Shown here: piece by piece, positions 13,730 through 20,306 of the stretch
How the letters are laid out: every line of letters starts with the position of its first letter
How positions within the stretch are numbered: the stretch's first letter is position 1
Assembly: GCA_025041195.1 (NCBI GenBank)
Contig: JAKCFM010000001.1
Span: 1,488,001-1,552,000, forward strand
DNA length: 64,000 bases
Reading direction: 5' to 3'
From: Halobacteriales archaeon YIM A00013
Lineage (GTDB): Archaea > Halobacteriota > Halobacteria > Halobacteriales > Haloarculaceae
Translations under genes and position numbers: made by a program
The notes under the pieces: model-generated
Told to the model about the DNA's origin: nothing
The model's input: the letters and a program-made list of their open reading frames with translations, nothing else
The model's database searches: none

Positions 13730-14150
13730 CTTCGTCACGGCCCCTAAATACCCGGCTAAAACGAAAAGCGATGCCATTCGAGTTTATCGATGGTGGGATT
13801 CAGCTGTGACGCGATTGGTGAAAATATACTTGTAAAAATACGTGCTTTTTCATAAGATTGTAAGCGGAAAATTCCCTGGAAGTGAATATCTTGATGAAAC
13901 TGCGGTGGGTGTGCTCTGTCACGCATATCGATAAACCTCGCTGTTGAGTTGTCTGTTAACCAAAATGATATTAGTCTATTATTTTCGATGCGATGATCGT
14001 GCTCCGTTGAGGTTACTAACTCGATTCGAACCAAACGGGGGATGAATCGCGTGGAAGAAGCGTTCTTACAGGCACCAGGCAATCTGACGTTCGTCATGAC
14101 GCGGACGTTCGGAACCCTCACAGATCAATTCAACTTACTAACACATACGA
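13730..14150. other. Intergenic stretch, A/T-rich, no gene seen
   Basis: This 420-bp stretch holds no convincing coding sequence on either strand. Around 13820-14000 it is distinctly more A/T-rich than its neighbours (atatacttgtaaaaatacg and aaaatgatattagtctatt), which may reflect regulatory DNA or foreign origin. It precedes the candidate structured RNA and would also hold the promoter of the acyl-CoA ligase. Confidence 0.4.
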
Positions 14151-14153
14151 AAG

Positions 14154-14300
14154 TTTATAACCCAGTGGGTTGGCACAATCAACTGGGAACGCCAGTCGGT
14201 GAGATTCGCGCGTGCACTGAAACGCGCCGGGTGTAGGAGCACCCGACGCTGGGGTTTCCATGCGGATGGTAACCCATGAAGGGAATAACGCTGCGGTACT
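14154..14300 (+). ncRNA. Candidate structured non-coding RNA
   Basis: A clean TATA box (TTTATAA, 14154-14160) is followed by a run of strong hairpins and no coding sequence: GCGCGT/ACGCGC (14208-14227), GGGTG/CACCC (14229-14244) and GGTTTCCAT/ATGGTAACC with loop GCGG (14253-14274, one T-T mismatch). CCAGTCGG (14192-14199) can also pair with CCGA-CG-CTGG near 14243-14252. The density of pairing argues for a functional RNA of about 110-150 nt or for the end of a decayed mobile element. I cannot match it to tRNA, SRP RNA or RNase P RNA. The SWIM-finger gene starts about 110 bp downstream. Confidence 0.4.
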
Positions 14301-14409
14301 GTAATCCTGTCGTATCGTCAATGACTAGCACGCGGTGCGCTCGCTGCGGGCAGCCGGTTGCTCGGCCACGCGCACACGCGACTGGGTGTCCATCGTGGAG
14401 GGTTGGTTC

Positions 14410-14934
14410 GTGAGTCTTCCACAGTTCAGTTTCCGGACGGTCGATGGTCAGGTTAGCACGCTTGCGGGGATCGATACTCGCGAGGAGCTTTCCAGTGCGG
14501 AGTTGCACCATGTGGTGGATATCGCGGAGAACTGCTGGTGTCGGCCGTGTCAGTCAACGGAGTGTCGGCACAGTCGCCAGGTTGAGGAGGTGCTGGCGAT
14601 TGCGGATTTGAGCGAGCGTTCGGGCGGTGGAGTTGATGAGCTTCCGTCGCTCGATCGGATTACTCGATTTCGATCGCAGGGCGAAACGATCTACACCGCC
14701 TGGTTCGATAATGATGCTCGGTTGCGTGCGCATGAGCAACGGAGTGGTGATGTTACACTGTTGGCGTTTTCTCCAGATCGTCCGGAGGATCCTGCACGAG
14801 CGCAGACGCAAGATGAGTCAGTGTCTGCTGCGAGCTGTTTGCTAGAAGCTGTCGTTCCGTTCTGTGAGGCGCGGTCGACCGAGGAGTTGCCTGCGCTTCT
14901 CCAGCTGTTGGTCTCACCAGCGCACTGCGACTAA
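14410..14934 (+). CDS. SWIM-type zinc-finger protein, unknown function
   Basis: 174 residues from a GTG start at 14410, chosen because GGAGGG lies 7 bases upstream and because a decayed copy at 20187 begins with the same MSLP. The segment ENCWCRPCQSTECRHSRQVE (about residues 40-60) fits the SWIM pattern C-x-C-x(7)-C-x-H; an extra Cys lies inside it. The C terminus is a helical stretch ending LPALLQLLVSPAHCD. SWIM domains are implicated in DNA or protein binding; the substrate here is unknown. Tails of this gene recur at 17999 and 20236 next to the CRISPR arrays. Confidence 0.65.
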   Translation: MSLPQFSFRTVDGQVSTLAGIDTREELSSAELHHVVDIAENCWCRPCQSTECRHSRQVEEVLAIADLSERSGGGVDELPSLDRITRFRSQGETIYTAWFDNDARLRAHEQRSGDVTLLAFSPDRPEDPARAQTQDESVSAASCLLEAVVPFCEARSTEELPALLQLLVSPAHCD

Positions 14935-15064
14935 CCTCTCCGGAAGGATTTTTGATTGCGCGAGTGACCAGAATAACCCACTGCAAGCGGGTTACAGAAT
15001 GAACCTCAAACGGTCGGGTGGAACAGCTTCATTCCGTCCATCGCGATAGCATCGGTGTACGCCC

Positions 15065-15094
15065 GCTTCAATCCTACCAGGATGGTTCTATAAC
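15065..15094 (-). repeat. Orphan, mutated copy of the 30-nt CRISPR repeat
   Basis: The 30-nt sequence differs from the array-1 repeat at only three positions (gctt...ctaccaggatggttctataac against ctactagggtggttctgtaac). It lies about 580 bp beyond the distal end of array 1, separated from it by the A/T-rich membrane-protein gene. It looks like a stranded old terminal repeat, with the intervening gene inserted later. Confidence 0.75.
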
Positions 15095-15137
15095 ATGGAA
15101 AATAGCTCATCATCGGATCTTGTAAATATGGACTCAT

Positions 15138-15551
15138 TCAAGTATTATCATACGAAAAATATATGAATCCAATTGCATACCCAATACTAGAGAATATAAT
15201 CCCATAAGAAGTAATTAGGAAGGTGAGATCCAGTAAATAATCAATTTGCATACCAAAAGGGAATGGCCGGTATGAAAAGAAAACTGTAATGATACCCATA
15301 AACAGATAAAATATAATTCCAGCTATCAAGCTAGATATCAACCCACCCTTCATATAGGCTATTAGCAGTCCCAAAATGATCGATGCAAATACCATTGGCA
15401 ATTGGGGGACAACAGAAGATCCTAGTGAAGCATTGCCGAACGGGTTGACGATATAAAATAATGAAACTGTGCCCGAAATCACCAGCGCTATCGCTAAAGA
15501 CTTAATCACATTATTCCAATTGCCTATGAATAAATTCTTTATAACACTCAT
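15138..15551 (-). CDS. A/T-rich four-helix membrane protein
   Basis: 137 residues from the ATG at 15551 (MSVIKNLFIGNWNNVIKSLA); an ATG five codons upstream is possible. Four hydrophobic helices are visible: SLAIALVISGTVSLFYIV, VVPQLPMVFASIILGLLIAY, LISSLIAGIIFYLFMGIITV and TFLITSYGIIFSSIGYAIGF. It resembles small haloarchaeal DUF5518-type proteins in layout, with no known role. Codon use (ATA, AGA, A/T third positions) differs sharply from neighbouring genes, so recent transfer is likely. It splits an orphan CRISPR repeat from array 1. Confidence 0.65.
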   Translation of the reverse strand: MSVIKNLFIGNWNNVIKSLAIALVISGTVSLFYIVNPFGNASLGSSVVPQLPMVFASIILGLLIAYMKGGLISSLIAGIIFYLFMGIITVFFSYRPFPFGMQIDYLLDLTFLITSYGIIFSSIGYAIGFIYFSYDNT

Positions 15552-15671
15552 TTGCCTATGTCTCACCTATTTCGATTTATAGGCCTTTCACCTACTTGTC
15601 GAAAGTAAAATAGCAGTATAACAAATGTTCAGTCTTTTATCAACCGAAAATAAATAAGTTGCTCCCAGCTG

Positions 15672-16548
15672 TCTTCAATCCTACTAGGGTGGTTCTGTAA
15701 CCCTCGATCGCCTCGCGATACTCTTCGAAATCGTGGCTTCAATCCTACTAGGGTGGTTCTGTAACGGGGGATCCCCGGCGTGATCGTAGCCGCCGCCGCG
15801 CTTCAATCCTACTAGGGTGGTTCTGTAACCGGAGATTGTAATAATATCGTCGTATGGACTGCGTGAGCTTCAATCCTACTAGGGTGGTTCTGTAACCCGT
15901 ACAATCGTGGACTTCAACACGCGGCAAGTGCTTCAATCCTACTAGGGTGGTTCTGTAACACAGTATTCGCGGGCAGCTGCGCGACCTCCTTGGCTTCAAT
16001 CCTACTAGGGTGGTTCTGTAACCTTGAACGTCTGGGTCATCGGTCGAACTCACCTTTGCTTCAATCCTACTAGGGTGGTTCTGTAACCCGGGTTGCGTGG
16101 GCGATTGAACGCAATGACTTCTGGATGCTTCAATCCTACTAGGGTGGTTCTGTAACTAATGGGGTGTATTGTATTGAATGTAGTCGGGCGATGCTTCAAT
16201 CCTACTAGGGTGGTTCTGTAACGAGACGCGTCAGCCAGCGACACACTGAAAATTAAGGCTTCAATCCTACTAGGGTGGTTCTGTAACCCGACGCCGTGTG
16301 GTCCGGATCATGGTAATCGAGGCGCTTCAATCCTACTAGGGTGGTTCTGTAACTCAGCGAGTGATTCGTCATCAACTTCTGCCTCGAAGCTTCAATCCTA
16401 CTAGGGTGGTTCTGTAACCATCTCGATGAGTTACGGACCTTTCCCGCGCCAGAAGCTTCAATCCTACTAGGGTGGTTCTGTAACCCTCCTCAATGATGTC
16501 GCTGTAGGGATCATCGGGGCTTCAATCCTACTAGGGTGGTTCTGTAAC
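15672..16548 (-). CRISPR. CRISPR array 1: 14 repeats of 30 nt, 13 spacers
   Basis: Plus-strand repeat reads gcttcaatcctactagggtg plus gttctgtaac; the transcript sense is the minus strand, where the repeat starts GTTACAGAACC and ends in the 8-nt handle ATTGAAGC. Repeats start at 15672, 15736, 15800, 15867, 15930, 15993, 16058, 16127, 16193, 16258, 16324, 16389, 16455 and 16519. Spacers are 33-39 nt. Only the leftmost repeat is altered (first base), as expected for the distal end, so the leader is on the right. Length and handle resemble haloarchaeal type I-B repeats; no type I cas gene is in the window. Confidence 0.98.
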
Positions 16549-16673
16549 GGTAGCCAATCAGCGGTATACAGCCCTTCTACTTAGTACTGCCGAGGCGATT
16601 TGACCACAGACCCCCAATAGCCCCTACACCCCCGGGGGGTCTGTGGTAACTGACCGTTGGATGACTATAAAAT
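16549..16673 (-). promoter_or_regulatory. Leader and promoter of CRISPR array 1
   Basis: On the minus strand a TATA box ATTTTATA (16673-16666) lies about 118 bp before the first repeat. Between them is a perfect 13-bp inverted repeat, accacagaccccc (16603-16615) and gggggtctgtggt (16635-16647), enclosing 19 nt. The position beside the undamaged end of the array supports leader identity; the palindrome could be a repressor site or an RNA hairpin in the leader transcript. The rest of the gap to 16946 shows nothing further I can name. Confidence 0.65.
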
Positions 16674-16945
16674 CCTCCCGCAGATCACTGACCGATCTGG
16701 TCTAACCAGTTTTTGAGCTTCGACTAAAGCGTAGATCGGAGGCCCTTCAGTGAAAATCCAGCACGAACGCAGCCACAACTTTCAACCAATACAACCGTCA
16801 TACCCTCCAACACTTCTATCGGAAATCCATCACATATTAATAGTGGTATTTCGATGTGGTAGGTATACGCATCCGACTGGGATGAACCGGTTGCCCGGTT
16901 TCCCCAGACGTGTAGAAGCACGTCCGAGGATGGGTCAGGATCAAA

Positions 16946-17719
16946 ATGGTTCTGAAACCCAACGAAATCGACGGACGGAGTATAGATAACACTGATGAAA
17001 CCAGCGAAGTTGTCGAGACGTGCCTCGAAGCGATATCGAGCCTTCGCGACCAGCAAACAGCGATGCTCAAGACGATCGAATCACAAAACGAGCGAATCGC
17101 CACGCTGGAAGCAGAGCGAACCGAGAAGGAAGCAACAAACGCAGAGTTGCACGAACGGATTGTGGAACTCGAAGACGAGCTCGAAACCTATCGCGCAGCA
17201 AACGAACGGGACAAGGCCGAGATCAGACAGGACGTAACCGAGAACACTCGCCAGACGGAGGCGTCAGAGAAACACACCGAGGCTGTTGCGCGGAAGGTCG
17301 AGACGCTTGATGGAAGCGAGCAACGGACGCCGCTGGAGCAAGTCGTTCGATTGCCGGAGGAAATTATTCATAAAGCGAAGCTGACGGCCAATCAGCGACG
17401 AGCCCGAGCGATTGCCATGGAGATCGGCGGACTGGCCACGACAGTGCCGAAAGGAAAGCGACTGGATTCGACAACAATCAAAGAACAGCTCGAACGGGAG
17501 TACGGATCGGCACACGACCAAACGGTCGCCCGAGTGATGTCGTTCCTGGATCGACTGGGTGGTGATCGAACCGAGGTCGTCCACACCGGCCAAGGAAAAG
17601 CCGTCATTTTCGACGACTGGCTTGCTAGACGCCTCACAACCGCTGAACAGTTCACTGCAGACACTGTTGATCGCGTCCTCACGAACGTTGTGAGCGTCAC
17701 TCCCAGAACGGGCAGCTAA
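16946..17719 (+). CDS. Coiled-coil protein with winged-helix-like C-terminal half
   Basis: 257 residues. Residues about 20-125 form a long Glu/Arg-rich coiled coil (TIESQNERIATLEAERTEKE onward). From about 130 the protein becomes globular (EEIIHKAKLTANQRRARAIA), with a DNA-binding-like winged-helix pattern (STTIKEQLEREYGSAHDQTV, then ARVMSFLDRLGGD) and a VVHTGQGKAVIF wing. Related haloarchaeal proteins occur on plasmids and integrated elements, and the role is not known. It is the only intact gene between the two CRISPR leaders; I see no cas similarity. Confidence 0.7.
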   Translation: MVLKPNEIDGRSIDNTDETSEVVETCLEAISSLRDQQTAMLKTIESQNERIATLEAERTEKEATNAELHERIVELEDELETYRAANERDKAEIRQDVTENTRQTEASEKHTEAVARKVETLDGSEQRTPLEQVVRLPEEIIHKAKLTANQRRARAIAMEIGGLATTVPKGKRLDSTTIKEQLEREYGSAHDQTVARVMSFLDRLGGDRTEVVHTGQGKAVIFDDWLARRLTTAEQFTADTVDRVLTNVVSVTPRTGS

Positions 17720-17998
17720 GGTGTGAGCAACAGCCCTCCGATAGGAATCTATTCAGGACACACACCTTGGCACGAATGACGGTCGATTCGGTAGTAGCAG
17801 CAGGTGTGAGGAAATGACCTTTTGTTCAGTAGTCGTACGCTGGATATTGCTAGCCATTCCTGGTCGAATAACGCCTATCTAGAGACTAGCTCACGACGAT
17901 CGTGAGCGAACTACTGGTGAGGGCTCACCCGACCCAACACGAGATTCCAACAGCTGTCTGTTCGATGTGGTCATTCCGATTTCTGGATATCAATCAAG

Positions 17999-18180
17999 GA
18001 ACTTCCCGTGATCCACCAACTGTTGGTTTCTCCAGCGCACGAAAGCTAACCTCTATGACGGATTCTTTTGAAACCGCATGTGGCTAGAATCACCCATCGC
18101 GAGCGGAGCGAGCAGCTTTTTTCATCAACGTTTTTTCGACGAGTGGTGAGCGGAGCGAACCCGAGTCTAAAAAAGGTTGG
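17999..18180 (+). pseudogene. Decayed 3' end of the SWIM-finger gene (copy 2)
   Basis: Reading from 17999 gives ELPVIHQLLVSPAHES and a stop at 18047-18049, nearly the same as the C terminus of the 14410 gene (ELPALLQLLVSPAHCD). Similarity continues past the stop (taacctct... then agaat.acccat..gcgagc), so this is a DNA duplication and not just protein conservation. The block ends at an aaaaaaggttgg motif (18172-18183) shared with copy 3. No upstream half of the gene is left. It lies just before the leader of array 2. Confidence 0.75.
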
Positions 18181-18292
18181 AATGCAGGCCAGTTGCGTTA
18201 CCAGAATCAGCGGAACATTGACGTGCGTCGGGCAGTGAGATCAGAAGTGAATTCGGAGTCTGGATGTCGATTTGGTAGATCGACGGCGTGAC

Positions 18293-18401
18293 CTTCGTGG
18301 ACCTTTATAAAGTCTGTGTACAGGGGGGGTCCACGAAGACAGGTCCGATTCTCGCCGGTGCAGAAACGATTATAGGGGCTCTACTCCAATAATCACCCCC
18401 T
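18293..18401 (+). promoter_or_regulatory. Leader and promoter of CRISPR array 2
   Basis: TATA box TTTATAAA (18304-18311) lies about 95 bp before the first repeat. It is enclosed by a perfect 11-bp inverted repeat, cttcgtggacc (18293-18303) and ggtccacgaag (18328-18338), which would place a palindromic site directly over the promoter. The downstream part holds ataggggctctactccaat, similar in flavour to taggggcta in the array-1 leader. The array decays at its far (right) end, which confirms that this is the leader side. Confidence 0.65.
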
Positions 18402-20107
18402 GTCGCAGGACCCTAGAAACCCAATGCGGGATTGAAACGGATGGAACAGAACACGACGGAACGTAAGTAGGTGGGTCGCAGGACCCTAGAAACCCAATGC
18501 GGGATTGAAACGAAGGGAAATGAGCGAGTGTGAGAAGGATGATGACGGTCGCAGGACCCTAGAAACCCAATGCGGGATTGAAACAGTAGTAGATGTGATG
18601 GAAGCAGACCAGAACGCTGTCGCAGGACCCTAGAAACCCAATGCGGGATTGAAACTGCACGATGATCCACGGATTAGGTTCGGGCAGAGTCGCAGGACCC
18701 TAGAAACCCAATGCGGGATTGAAACTTGCAGCTCATGACTCTTCGGGCAATGTAATCCCGCGAGGTCGCAGGACCCTAGAAACCCAATGCGGGATTGAAA
18801 CTACGAGACTAGGGATAATCGGGGTACAACAACCGTCGCAGGACCCTAGAAACCCAATGCGGGATTGAAACGAGTGATTCTGGACTTGAGCCTCCGACGC
18901 AACAGTCGCAGGACCCTAGAAACCCAATGCGGGATTGAAACCGGACACATCCCCCAACACGGGAACGGTGTCCTCTAACAGTCGCAGGACCCTAGAAACC
19001 CAATGCGGGATTGAAACTTTGCGTCTACATTCGAACCATGCTTGTTCCCGGTCGGTCGCAGGACCCTAGAAACCCAATGCGGGATTGAAACGAGTGATTC
19101 TGGACTTGAGCCTCCGACGCAACAGTCGCAGGACCCTAGAAACCCAATGCGGGATTGAAACACTCGAATTGACAGAAACAAACCGTCCTTTCTCACGTCG
19201 CAGGACCCTAGAAACCCAATGCGGGATTGAAACTCATCAACTCCAACGACACGTCTATGTCGGTCGAAGGTCGCAGGACCCTAGAAACCCAATGCGGGAT
19301 TGAAACACAATGTCAAGCTGAAGAGTTGTTGGGGTTGGGGAGTCGCAGGACCCTAGAAACCCAATGCGGGATTGAAACGCGACGACGGCGATGATGACGA
19401 TGGTGTGGACGCGGATGTCGCAGGACCCTAGAAACCCAATGCGGGATTGAAACGTTAGGAACGCATGGCTCAACGTCGATCGCAACAGTCGCAGGACCCT
19501 AGAAACCCAATGCGGGATTGAAACGAGTGCATCGAGCTGGGCGAGCGGGAGCGCCGAGACGTCGCAGGACCCTAGAAACCCAATGCGGGATTGAAACGGG
19601 GTAGCTCCTACCATATCTGGATCACGGAACCACGTCGCAGGACCCTAGAAACCCAATGCGGGATTGAAACACAGTGAATTATACCATCGAATTCAGGAGA
19701 GTTTCAGTCGCAGGACCCTAGAAACCCAATGCGGGATTGAAACCGATGGAAATTGAACCAGCAGCGCACGGTAAAACGGTCGCAGGACCCTAGAAACCCA
19801 ATGCGGGATTGAAACTTCGTCGGGATGTCCCGCTTGAGCTCGCCGACCAAGGTCGCAGGACCCTAGAAACCCAATGCGGGATTGAAACTCGTAATTATGG
19901 ATAATCTACAACTTACAATTGAGCGTCGCAGGACCCTAGAAACCCAATGCGAGATTGAAACCGTCGATCCGGTTTCAGGACCGCTCAGCTGTCTTCCGTC
20001 GCAGAACCCTAGAAACCCAAAGCGGGATTAAAACCGACCTACGTCGGCAGCAACATCGAACGTGAGAAGGGTCGCAGGACCCTAGAAACCCACTGCGGGA
20101 TTGTAAC
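18402..20107 (+). CRISPR. CRISPR array 2: 24 repeats of 37 nt, 23 spacers
   Basis: Repeat reads gtcgcaggaccctagaaacc plus caatgcgggattgaaac, ending in the crRNA handle ATTGAAAC, so transcription is on the plus strand. Repeat starts: 18402, 18475, 18548, 18619, 18689, 18765, 18835, 18905, 18981, 19055, 19125, 19197, 19270, 19342, 19417, 19488, 19561, 19634, 19707, 19779, 19852, 19925, 19998, 20071. Spacers are 33-39 nt. Spacers 7 (18872-18904) and 10 (19092-19124) are identical. The last three repeats carry one to four substitutions, marking the old end. The repeat type and the operon at 49-56 kb make this the likely type III-A guide source. Confidence 0.98.
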
Positions 20108-20143
20108 GACGAGGTCGCGGGGCCGATCGTTGGCGATCGGTAT

Positions 20144-20180
20144 GTCGCTGTACCCTAAAACTATAACCACGAAGGAGAGC
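20144..20180 (+). repeat. Strongly decayed 25th repeat of array 2
   Basis: Starting 36 nt after the last recognisable repeat, exactly one spacer length away, gtcgctgtaccctaaaacta still matches about 14 of the first 20 repeat positions; the rest is unrecognisable. It shows that the array once extended further right. Confidence 0.55.
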
Positions 20181-20186
20181 CGATTC

Positions 20187-20306
20187 ATGAGTCTTCCACA
20201 TACTGTTATCGTACAGGTGTGGCTGCCTGCACTCCTCGGACTGCTTATCTCTCCGGCCCACGACGACCAACTCAAAGCCACCTTCTCCGCACATTTGACG
20301 AACTAA
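20187..20306 (+). pseudogene. Internally deleted remnant of the SWIM-finger gene (copy 3)
   Basis: A 39-codon reading frame starts MSLPHT, like the intact gene's MSLPQF, and then jumps to LPALLGLLISPAHDD, the intact gene's C terminus (LPALLQLLVSPAHCD), before an extended tail and stop. The zinc-finger middle is missing. It has its own TATA-like sequence (ctataacc, 20161-20168), so a 39-residue peptide could in principle be made, but decay is the simpler reading. It sits just past the distal end of array 2. Confidence 0.7.

Follow-up and report, generated by a model that had tools for sequence, protein, structure and literature searches.

The plasmid systems CopA/CopT and ColE1 RNAI/RNAII are leaders under antisense control, in which specificity loops are found. 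Haloarchaea are known to have SWIM zinc-finger proteins, among them HVO_0362 (PMC11899642), and also HRAMP, a haloarchaeal RAMP derivative of the clustered regularly interspaced short palindromic repeats (CRISPR) systems that is array-less and contains RNase-H-like and HNH proteins (PMC8730458, PMC12669027). Here we analyse a window of 64,000 nucleotides (nt; contig 1, positions 1488001-1552000) of the 3.73-Mb genome of Halobacteriales archaeon YIM A00013, and in it a SWIM-like gene close to two CRISPR arrays, together with the RNA in front of its operon. That leader is a conserved structured RNA, undescribed and widespread in haloarchaea. We think, with a probability of about 0.6, that it is a cis-regulatory switch with a recognition loop specific to each copy, and that the proximity to CRISPR arrays arose by duplication of a module.

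An original prediction, made from the window sequence, had described an intact gene of 174 amino acids (aa) with two remnants of it beside the arrays. We found the gene as an open reading frame (ORF) of that length with a GTG start, and both remnants, all three on the forward strand and placed relative to arrays 1 and 2 as described (Table 1). The prediction had not noticed a 45-aa ORF (ORF1) ahead of the gene (ORF2), the leader RNA or the large copy number. The stop codon of ORF1 overlaps the start of ORF2 (GTGA), and this gene order is found in every subfamily. There are 22 further homologues in the genome, 23 copies in all, and each is a two-gene operon behind a leader RNA with a copy-specific tip. 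Subfamily A has 11 copies (ten are the query or have 91-95% protein identity to it, and one has 77%) and subfamily B has 12, at about 43% identity to the query. Real relatives within the order are confined to a Halocatena-like genus, to which the source genome belongs together with YIM A00010 (about 37 copies), Actinarchaeum halophilum YIM 93972 (about 20) and Halocatena marina (one). The Halocatena lineage includes spore- and hypha-formers; YIM 93972 forms both hyphae and spores (PMC10067837), and the text of that paper, Tang et al. 2023 on hypha-forming haloarchaea, does not mention the SWIM genes.

Paralogues differ at 15-19% of their nucleotides. About 12 copies have syntenic DNA on both flanks in YIM 93972 (86-97% identical), and the ratio of nonsynonymous to synonymous substitution rates (dN/dS) of the SWIM-like gene is as low as 0.08 in A, 0.05 in B and 0.14 in YIM A00010, and the copies must therefore be old and individually maintained. 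ORF1 is conserved in all subfamilies, with a dN/dS of 0.15-0.29. The tails and partial copies are products of decay or partial duplication. The first remnant in the window (about 17999-18055) is a C-terminal end with downstream hairpin DNA, 78-98% identical to the tails of other copies. The second (20187-20306) has kept, as first described, the initial residues and the C-terminal end and has lost the zinc finger; its start shares 81% identity over 27 nt with the SWIM-like gene.

The sequence of about 95 nt between the promoter and ORF1 folds into a four-way junction in every copy. A covariance model (R1) scores the leader of the window at 91.3 bits and has 23 matches in the genome, the same number as that of the SWIM-like copies. 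The RNA is matched in 104 of 392 Halobacteriales genomes, from 43 genera (E≤5e-4). For 41 diverse leader sequences, covariation was 0.487 against 0.172±0.011 in shuffled alignments, 17 of the 22 base pairs were altered on both sides, and 97.8% of the cells were paired; the alignment had been fitted to the model, which favours the pairing score, but slid controls dropped to 37-46%. Rfam 15 gave no match to the leader of the window at E≤5, nor to those of nine other loci at E≤0.5. In the sampled loci the AUG 3' of the RNA opens small zinc-binding proteins, SWIM proteins or short ORFs whose status is uncertain. About 20 nt past this AUG, a conserved GATATAAACGT (L164, L165, L168, L172, L174, L176 and others) is TATA-like on either strand, and by this resemblance looks like an internal or antisense promoter. 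Divergent leader RNAs also occur on smaller replicons (contigs 4, 6 and 7 of G381; L141, L159-L161), and two of those in G381 are oppositely oriented, about 2.3 kb apart.

The apical loop of the P4 hairpin, CGGGTG-N6/7-CACCCG, differs in nearly every copy. Over 13 pairs of orthologues, identity is 93-95% in the non-loop part of the RNA but 55% in the loop, with 41% for random pairs of loops. Loop differences in 12 syntenic pairs were 41/79 against 23.8±4.0 expected from 4-fold synonymous sites, and thus the loops change faster than neutral, without an excess by an order of magnitude. Even in another genus, two leaders (L169 and L173) that differ at two non-loop positions have the loops CTGGAAC and ATACCAG. 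Closure of the loop by Watson-Crick pairs is avoided (T-A 0, G-C 0 and C-G 1, with about 6, 7 and 8 expected), Y2 and R6 are preferred, and 25 pairs of identical loops were found against 3.8±2.0 expected, 23 of them between genomes and a few being orthologues. In sum, the loop stays open, varies widely and has a restricted repertoire, which fits a recognition element. That it is unconstrained and uninformative, and drifts neutrally save for keeping the stem from extending, would fit with the frequent variability of apical loops and with the constraint on the remainder of the RNA, and the leader may be a switch even so; the excess of loop divergence over that of 4-fold sites in these loci, the limited and shared repertoire, the strong Y2/R6 preference and the missing Watson-Crick closure make such a loop unlikely. 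Another candidate, a mimic or complement of the transfer RNA anticodon, was rejected: the loops resemble it in their pattern N-Y-N-N-N-R-N, but A is frequent where base 34 would be (in a comparison that rests on 18 anticodon loops).

Besides closing P1, the 3' strand of that helix could pair with the bases directly 5' of the AUG (P5), with GGGTTC/GAACCC-AUG here and GGCTTC/GAAGCC-AUG elsewhere. This complementarity, 5.27 against 4.52±0.16, exceeds all of 200 permutations (maximum 4.90), and the two alternative helices have, as read from the sequence, the layout of a translational switch. We hypothesize that folding of the junction through P1 exposes the start codon, that pairing of the same strand in P5 masks it, and that the P4 loop of 6-7 nt would choose between the folds. 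The loop probably pairs with another RNA, for example a transcript antisense to it in cis, and loops specific to each paralogue would prevent cross-talk between copies; the proteins are likely to be nucleic-acid-binding regulators. Several points weigh against such a switch. The P5 signal is weaker than that of P1. No partner of the loop was found: loops from the same genome do not complement each other, and within 5 kb the own loop occurs 50 times against 49 expected, and its complement 49 times against 48. The loop is not always variable, because some near-identical HRAMP leaders (see below) share TTGCAG. Leader and antisense RNA are both predictions from sequence, and the zinc-finger role is predicted from a motif, with no structural match.

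The original prediction had suggested a repeat-borne element, which was right insofar as the unit is multicopy. One could go further and imagine a mobile element whose variable loop picks the insertion target, like the bridge RNAs of IS110, as the unit is intergenic as well as multicopy, combines an RNA with a protein and has a variable loop. This is very improbable. The own loop is not enriched in the flanks in either orientation, the unit has no recombinase, the majority of copies are syntenic between species, and neither terminal boundaries nor target duplications were recognised. No relatives were found among viral contigs, and the one site tested in YIM 93972 without a full copy is not empty but has a remnant of the tail. 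An IS110-like bridge-RNA element was therefore rejected, on the lack of both an excess of flank complementarity and a recombinase.

Outside Halocatena the same RNA heads another kind of operon. The first hint came from two leader loci with a sub-threshold match to a RAMP protein (PF03787, E 0.0067), which a search from the protein side found in 94 of 392 genomes. The leader RNA lies on the same strand about 430-700 nt upstream of the RAMP gene at 25 of 30 loci examined (E up to 0.075 for the weakest matches), and the order is leader RNA, small conserved CxxC protein, RAMP gene. RAMP, RNase-H-like and HNH proteins are all present in an example operon (L248:230-6106; set L188-L217), and by this gene content we assign the operons to HRAMP, a naming that is our own. 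No HRAMP RAMP homologue was detected in Halocatena, and HRAMP is thus not the partner of the leader there. The position in front of an ORF could be incidental if the leader were a small RNA acting by itself, its loop serving as a kind of guide for zinc-finger/SWIM proteins and HRAMP effectors. The regular placement 5' of the RAMP genes, the open and variable loop, and the description of HRAMP as array-less (PMC12669027) are in favour of this idea, but a guide of 6-7 nt would be short, several HRAMP leaders have one loop in common, the RAMP protein was not detected in Halocatena, and the P5 complementarity at the AUG and the conservation of the first ORF favour cis-regulation; we find it quite unlikely. 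Equally speculative, and doubtful, is a haloarchaea-wide RNA whose open loop of 6-7 nt is programmable and confers specificity on both zinc-finger/SWIM proteins and array-less HRAMP complexes, and which the Halocatena lineage would have multiplied to some 20-40 copies per genome, each with a different address.

Homologues do lie near CRISPR arrays above chance, as had been predicted, in subfamily A. Six of its 11 copies are ≤3.5 kb from CRISPR repeats, which belong to the two types of array; 0.35 would be expected, and at most four came near repeats in 100,000 random placements. In YIM 93972 a CRISPR repeat or leader sequence is present within 10 kb of seven of nine subfamily-A loci. The repeated association is thus real for subfamily A in both genomes, but it is absent for subfamily B (0/12). 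No CRISPR sequence was found within 10 kb of the subfamily-B loci of YIM 93972, of 37 of 37 loci of YIM A00010 or of the H. marina locus. Conversely, no member of the family lies close to several of the arrays (contig 2, part of contig 3, 348-376 kb). A general function tied to arrays, the other suggestion of the prediction, is for these reasons unsupported, and homologues with no link to CRISPR, which the prediction had named as its refutation, are largely what was found.

The order SWIM-A, array, leader 1, ORF16946, tail, leader 2 is repeated at several places in the genome, the array 1 leader sequence recurs beside other subfamily-A copies, and ORF16946, as a homologue or as a remnant, adjoins nine of the nine listed subfamily-A copies of YIM 93972 and most of those here. 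Because this order recurs and ORF16946 accompanies the A copies, copies and arrays are not independent events. The best and simplest account of the link is that SWIM-A, array, leader and ORF16946 were duplicated as one module; the proximity would come from a duplicated chromosomal segment, and later decay would have left the tails of the window. A real CRISPR function of subfamily A, for example as a regulator binding array ends or leaders and selected to stay beside arrays, has in its favour the six of 11 copies near repeats, the gene facing the leader-distal end at five repeat-1 loci, the CRISPR sequence kept at seven of nine loci in YIM 93972 and the strong conservation of the copies. We regard it as rather improbable, as B copies of the same architecture are never near arrays, contig 2 has arrays with no copy, and the 37 copies of YIM A00010 have no arrays within 10 kb. 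Moreover, ORF16946 accompanies the copies no less regularly than the arrays do, which suggests a duplicated segment. The CRISPR link is real for one branch and probably incidental.

The label of SWIM-type zinc finger holds as a resemblance of motif, but the protein matches no family in Pfam (E≤1, PF04434 included) or NCBIfam and its invariant ligands differ from a strict CxCx(n)CxH. C44, C47, C52 and H54 are invariant (C44-x2-C47-x4-C52-x-H54, or CxxCx4CxH), and C42 is restricted to subfamily A. Searches with PADLOC, PDB sequences and Foldseek gave nothing convincing, and the AlphaFold2 (AF2) model has a predicted local distance difference test (pLDDT) score of 77. Judged by this motif, the product of ORF2 is SWIM-like only. 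Several SWIM-like paralogues (L093, L097, L098 and L106 in YIM A00010; L062, L142, L145 and L147 in G327) have an insert of about 51 nt. It forms two hairpins, brings stop codons into frame and sits in each of them at one and the same codon of the finger motif. Its precise excision restores WC(R/K)PC, its stems vary compensatorily across species, and it could be a messenger RNA intron or a mobile hairpin. In several copies (L131, L132, L134, L135; G339) the junction of ORF1 and ORF2 has taken up palindromic hairpin repeats, which read as RSGARSAPSRKKRGRKKAA.

The features of the window are collected in Table 1. The repeats of array 1 span 15065-16548 in total, the degenerate one included, and since its leader is on the right the SWIM-like gene stands at the leader-distal end. 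The AT-rich insert in this array (15102-15671) contains a 142-aa hydrophobic ORF on the reverse strand and is absent from the other loci in the comparison. Array 2 has the spacer GAGTGATTCTGGACTTGAGCCTCCGACGCAACA twice (18835-18941 and 19055-19161), inside an identical block of 107 nt. For ORF16946, no specific family was found in Pfam, NCBIfam or PADLOC.

Table 1. Features of the operon, its remnants and the two CRISPR arrays (positions in the window; BRE, B recognition element).
Feature	Position	Strand	Remarks
BRE/TATA-like promoter acgaaagtttataac	14146..14162	+	By consensus only; kept across subfamily-A copies in alignment
Structured 5' leader RNA (predicted)	14184..14278	+	Four-way junction P1-P4, alternative P5 against start codon
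P4 variable apical loop	14234..14239	+	TAGGAG at this copy
ORF1	14276..14413	+	45 aa, CxxC, zinc-ribbon-like (MKGITLRYCNPVVSSMTSTRCARCGQPVARPRAHATGCPSWRVGS)
ORF2 (SWIM-like gene)	14410..14934	+	GTG start, 174 aa, second cistron of operon
Array 1, degenerate leader-distal repeat	15065..15094	-	Cut off from remaining repeats by AT-rich insert
CRISPR array 1	15672..16548	-	14 repeats, GTTACAGAACCACCCTAGTAGGATTGAAGC on - strand
Array 1 leader	16556..16700	-	Inverted repeat gaccacagaccccc/gggggtctgtggt
ORF16946	16946..17719	+	257-aa coiled-coil ORF
Remnant tail	17999..18055	+	C-terminal tail of subfamily-A copy, 3' of ORF16946
Array 2 leader	18260..18401	+	Left of array 2
CRISPR array 2	18402..20107	+	24 repeats
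Remnant with start and C-terminal end	20187..20306	+	Finger deleted; reads MSLPH...LPALLGLLISPAHDD...

These results bring to light a structured RNA that is widespread in haloarchaea and missing from Rfam. SWIM genes and HRAMP operons follow one rule, a leader RNA and then a small zinc-binding protein. For the array-less HRAMP, the leader becomes a candidate for an RNA component or a regulator. The P4 loop, variable between copies yet from a shared repertoire, offers a recognition code that can be tested. The family is also an example of how a single branch can acquire a genuine association with CRISPR arrays that need not reflect a CRISPR function.

Compared with SWIM proteins (PF04434), the Halocatena proteins have ligands ending in CxH and then, in the AF2 model, a helix, and the same leader RNA stands directly 5' of the SWIM proteins of other haloarchaeal genera (8/30 loci); they differ in missing the Pfam profile, in their CxxCx4CxH, and in being lineage-specific, 174 aa long and paired with a CxxC ORF of 45 aa. 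Leader RNA and small CxxC protein head the HRAMP operons too (25/30), but Halocatena has no detected RAMP homologue. With translational riboswitches the locus shares, by prediction, mutually exclusive helices that govern access to the start codon; the likeness is one of layout, with no known ligand, and the variable loop and the lack of an Rfam match set it apart. From CopA/CopT and ColE1 RNAI/RNAII it differs in belonging to chromosomal archaeal operons, in the putative P1/P5 switch at the AUG and in an antisense RNA that is hypothetical, and it resembles them in that the leader precedes the gene it would control and in a conserved stem with an open, U-turn-like loop of 6-7 nt that varies among near-identical copies.
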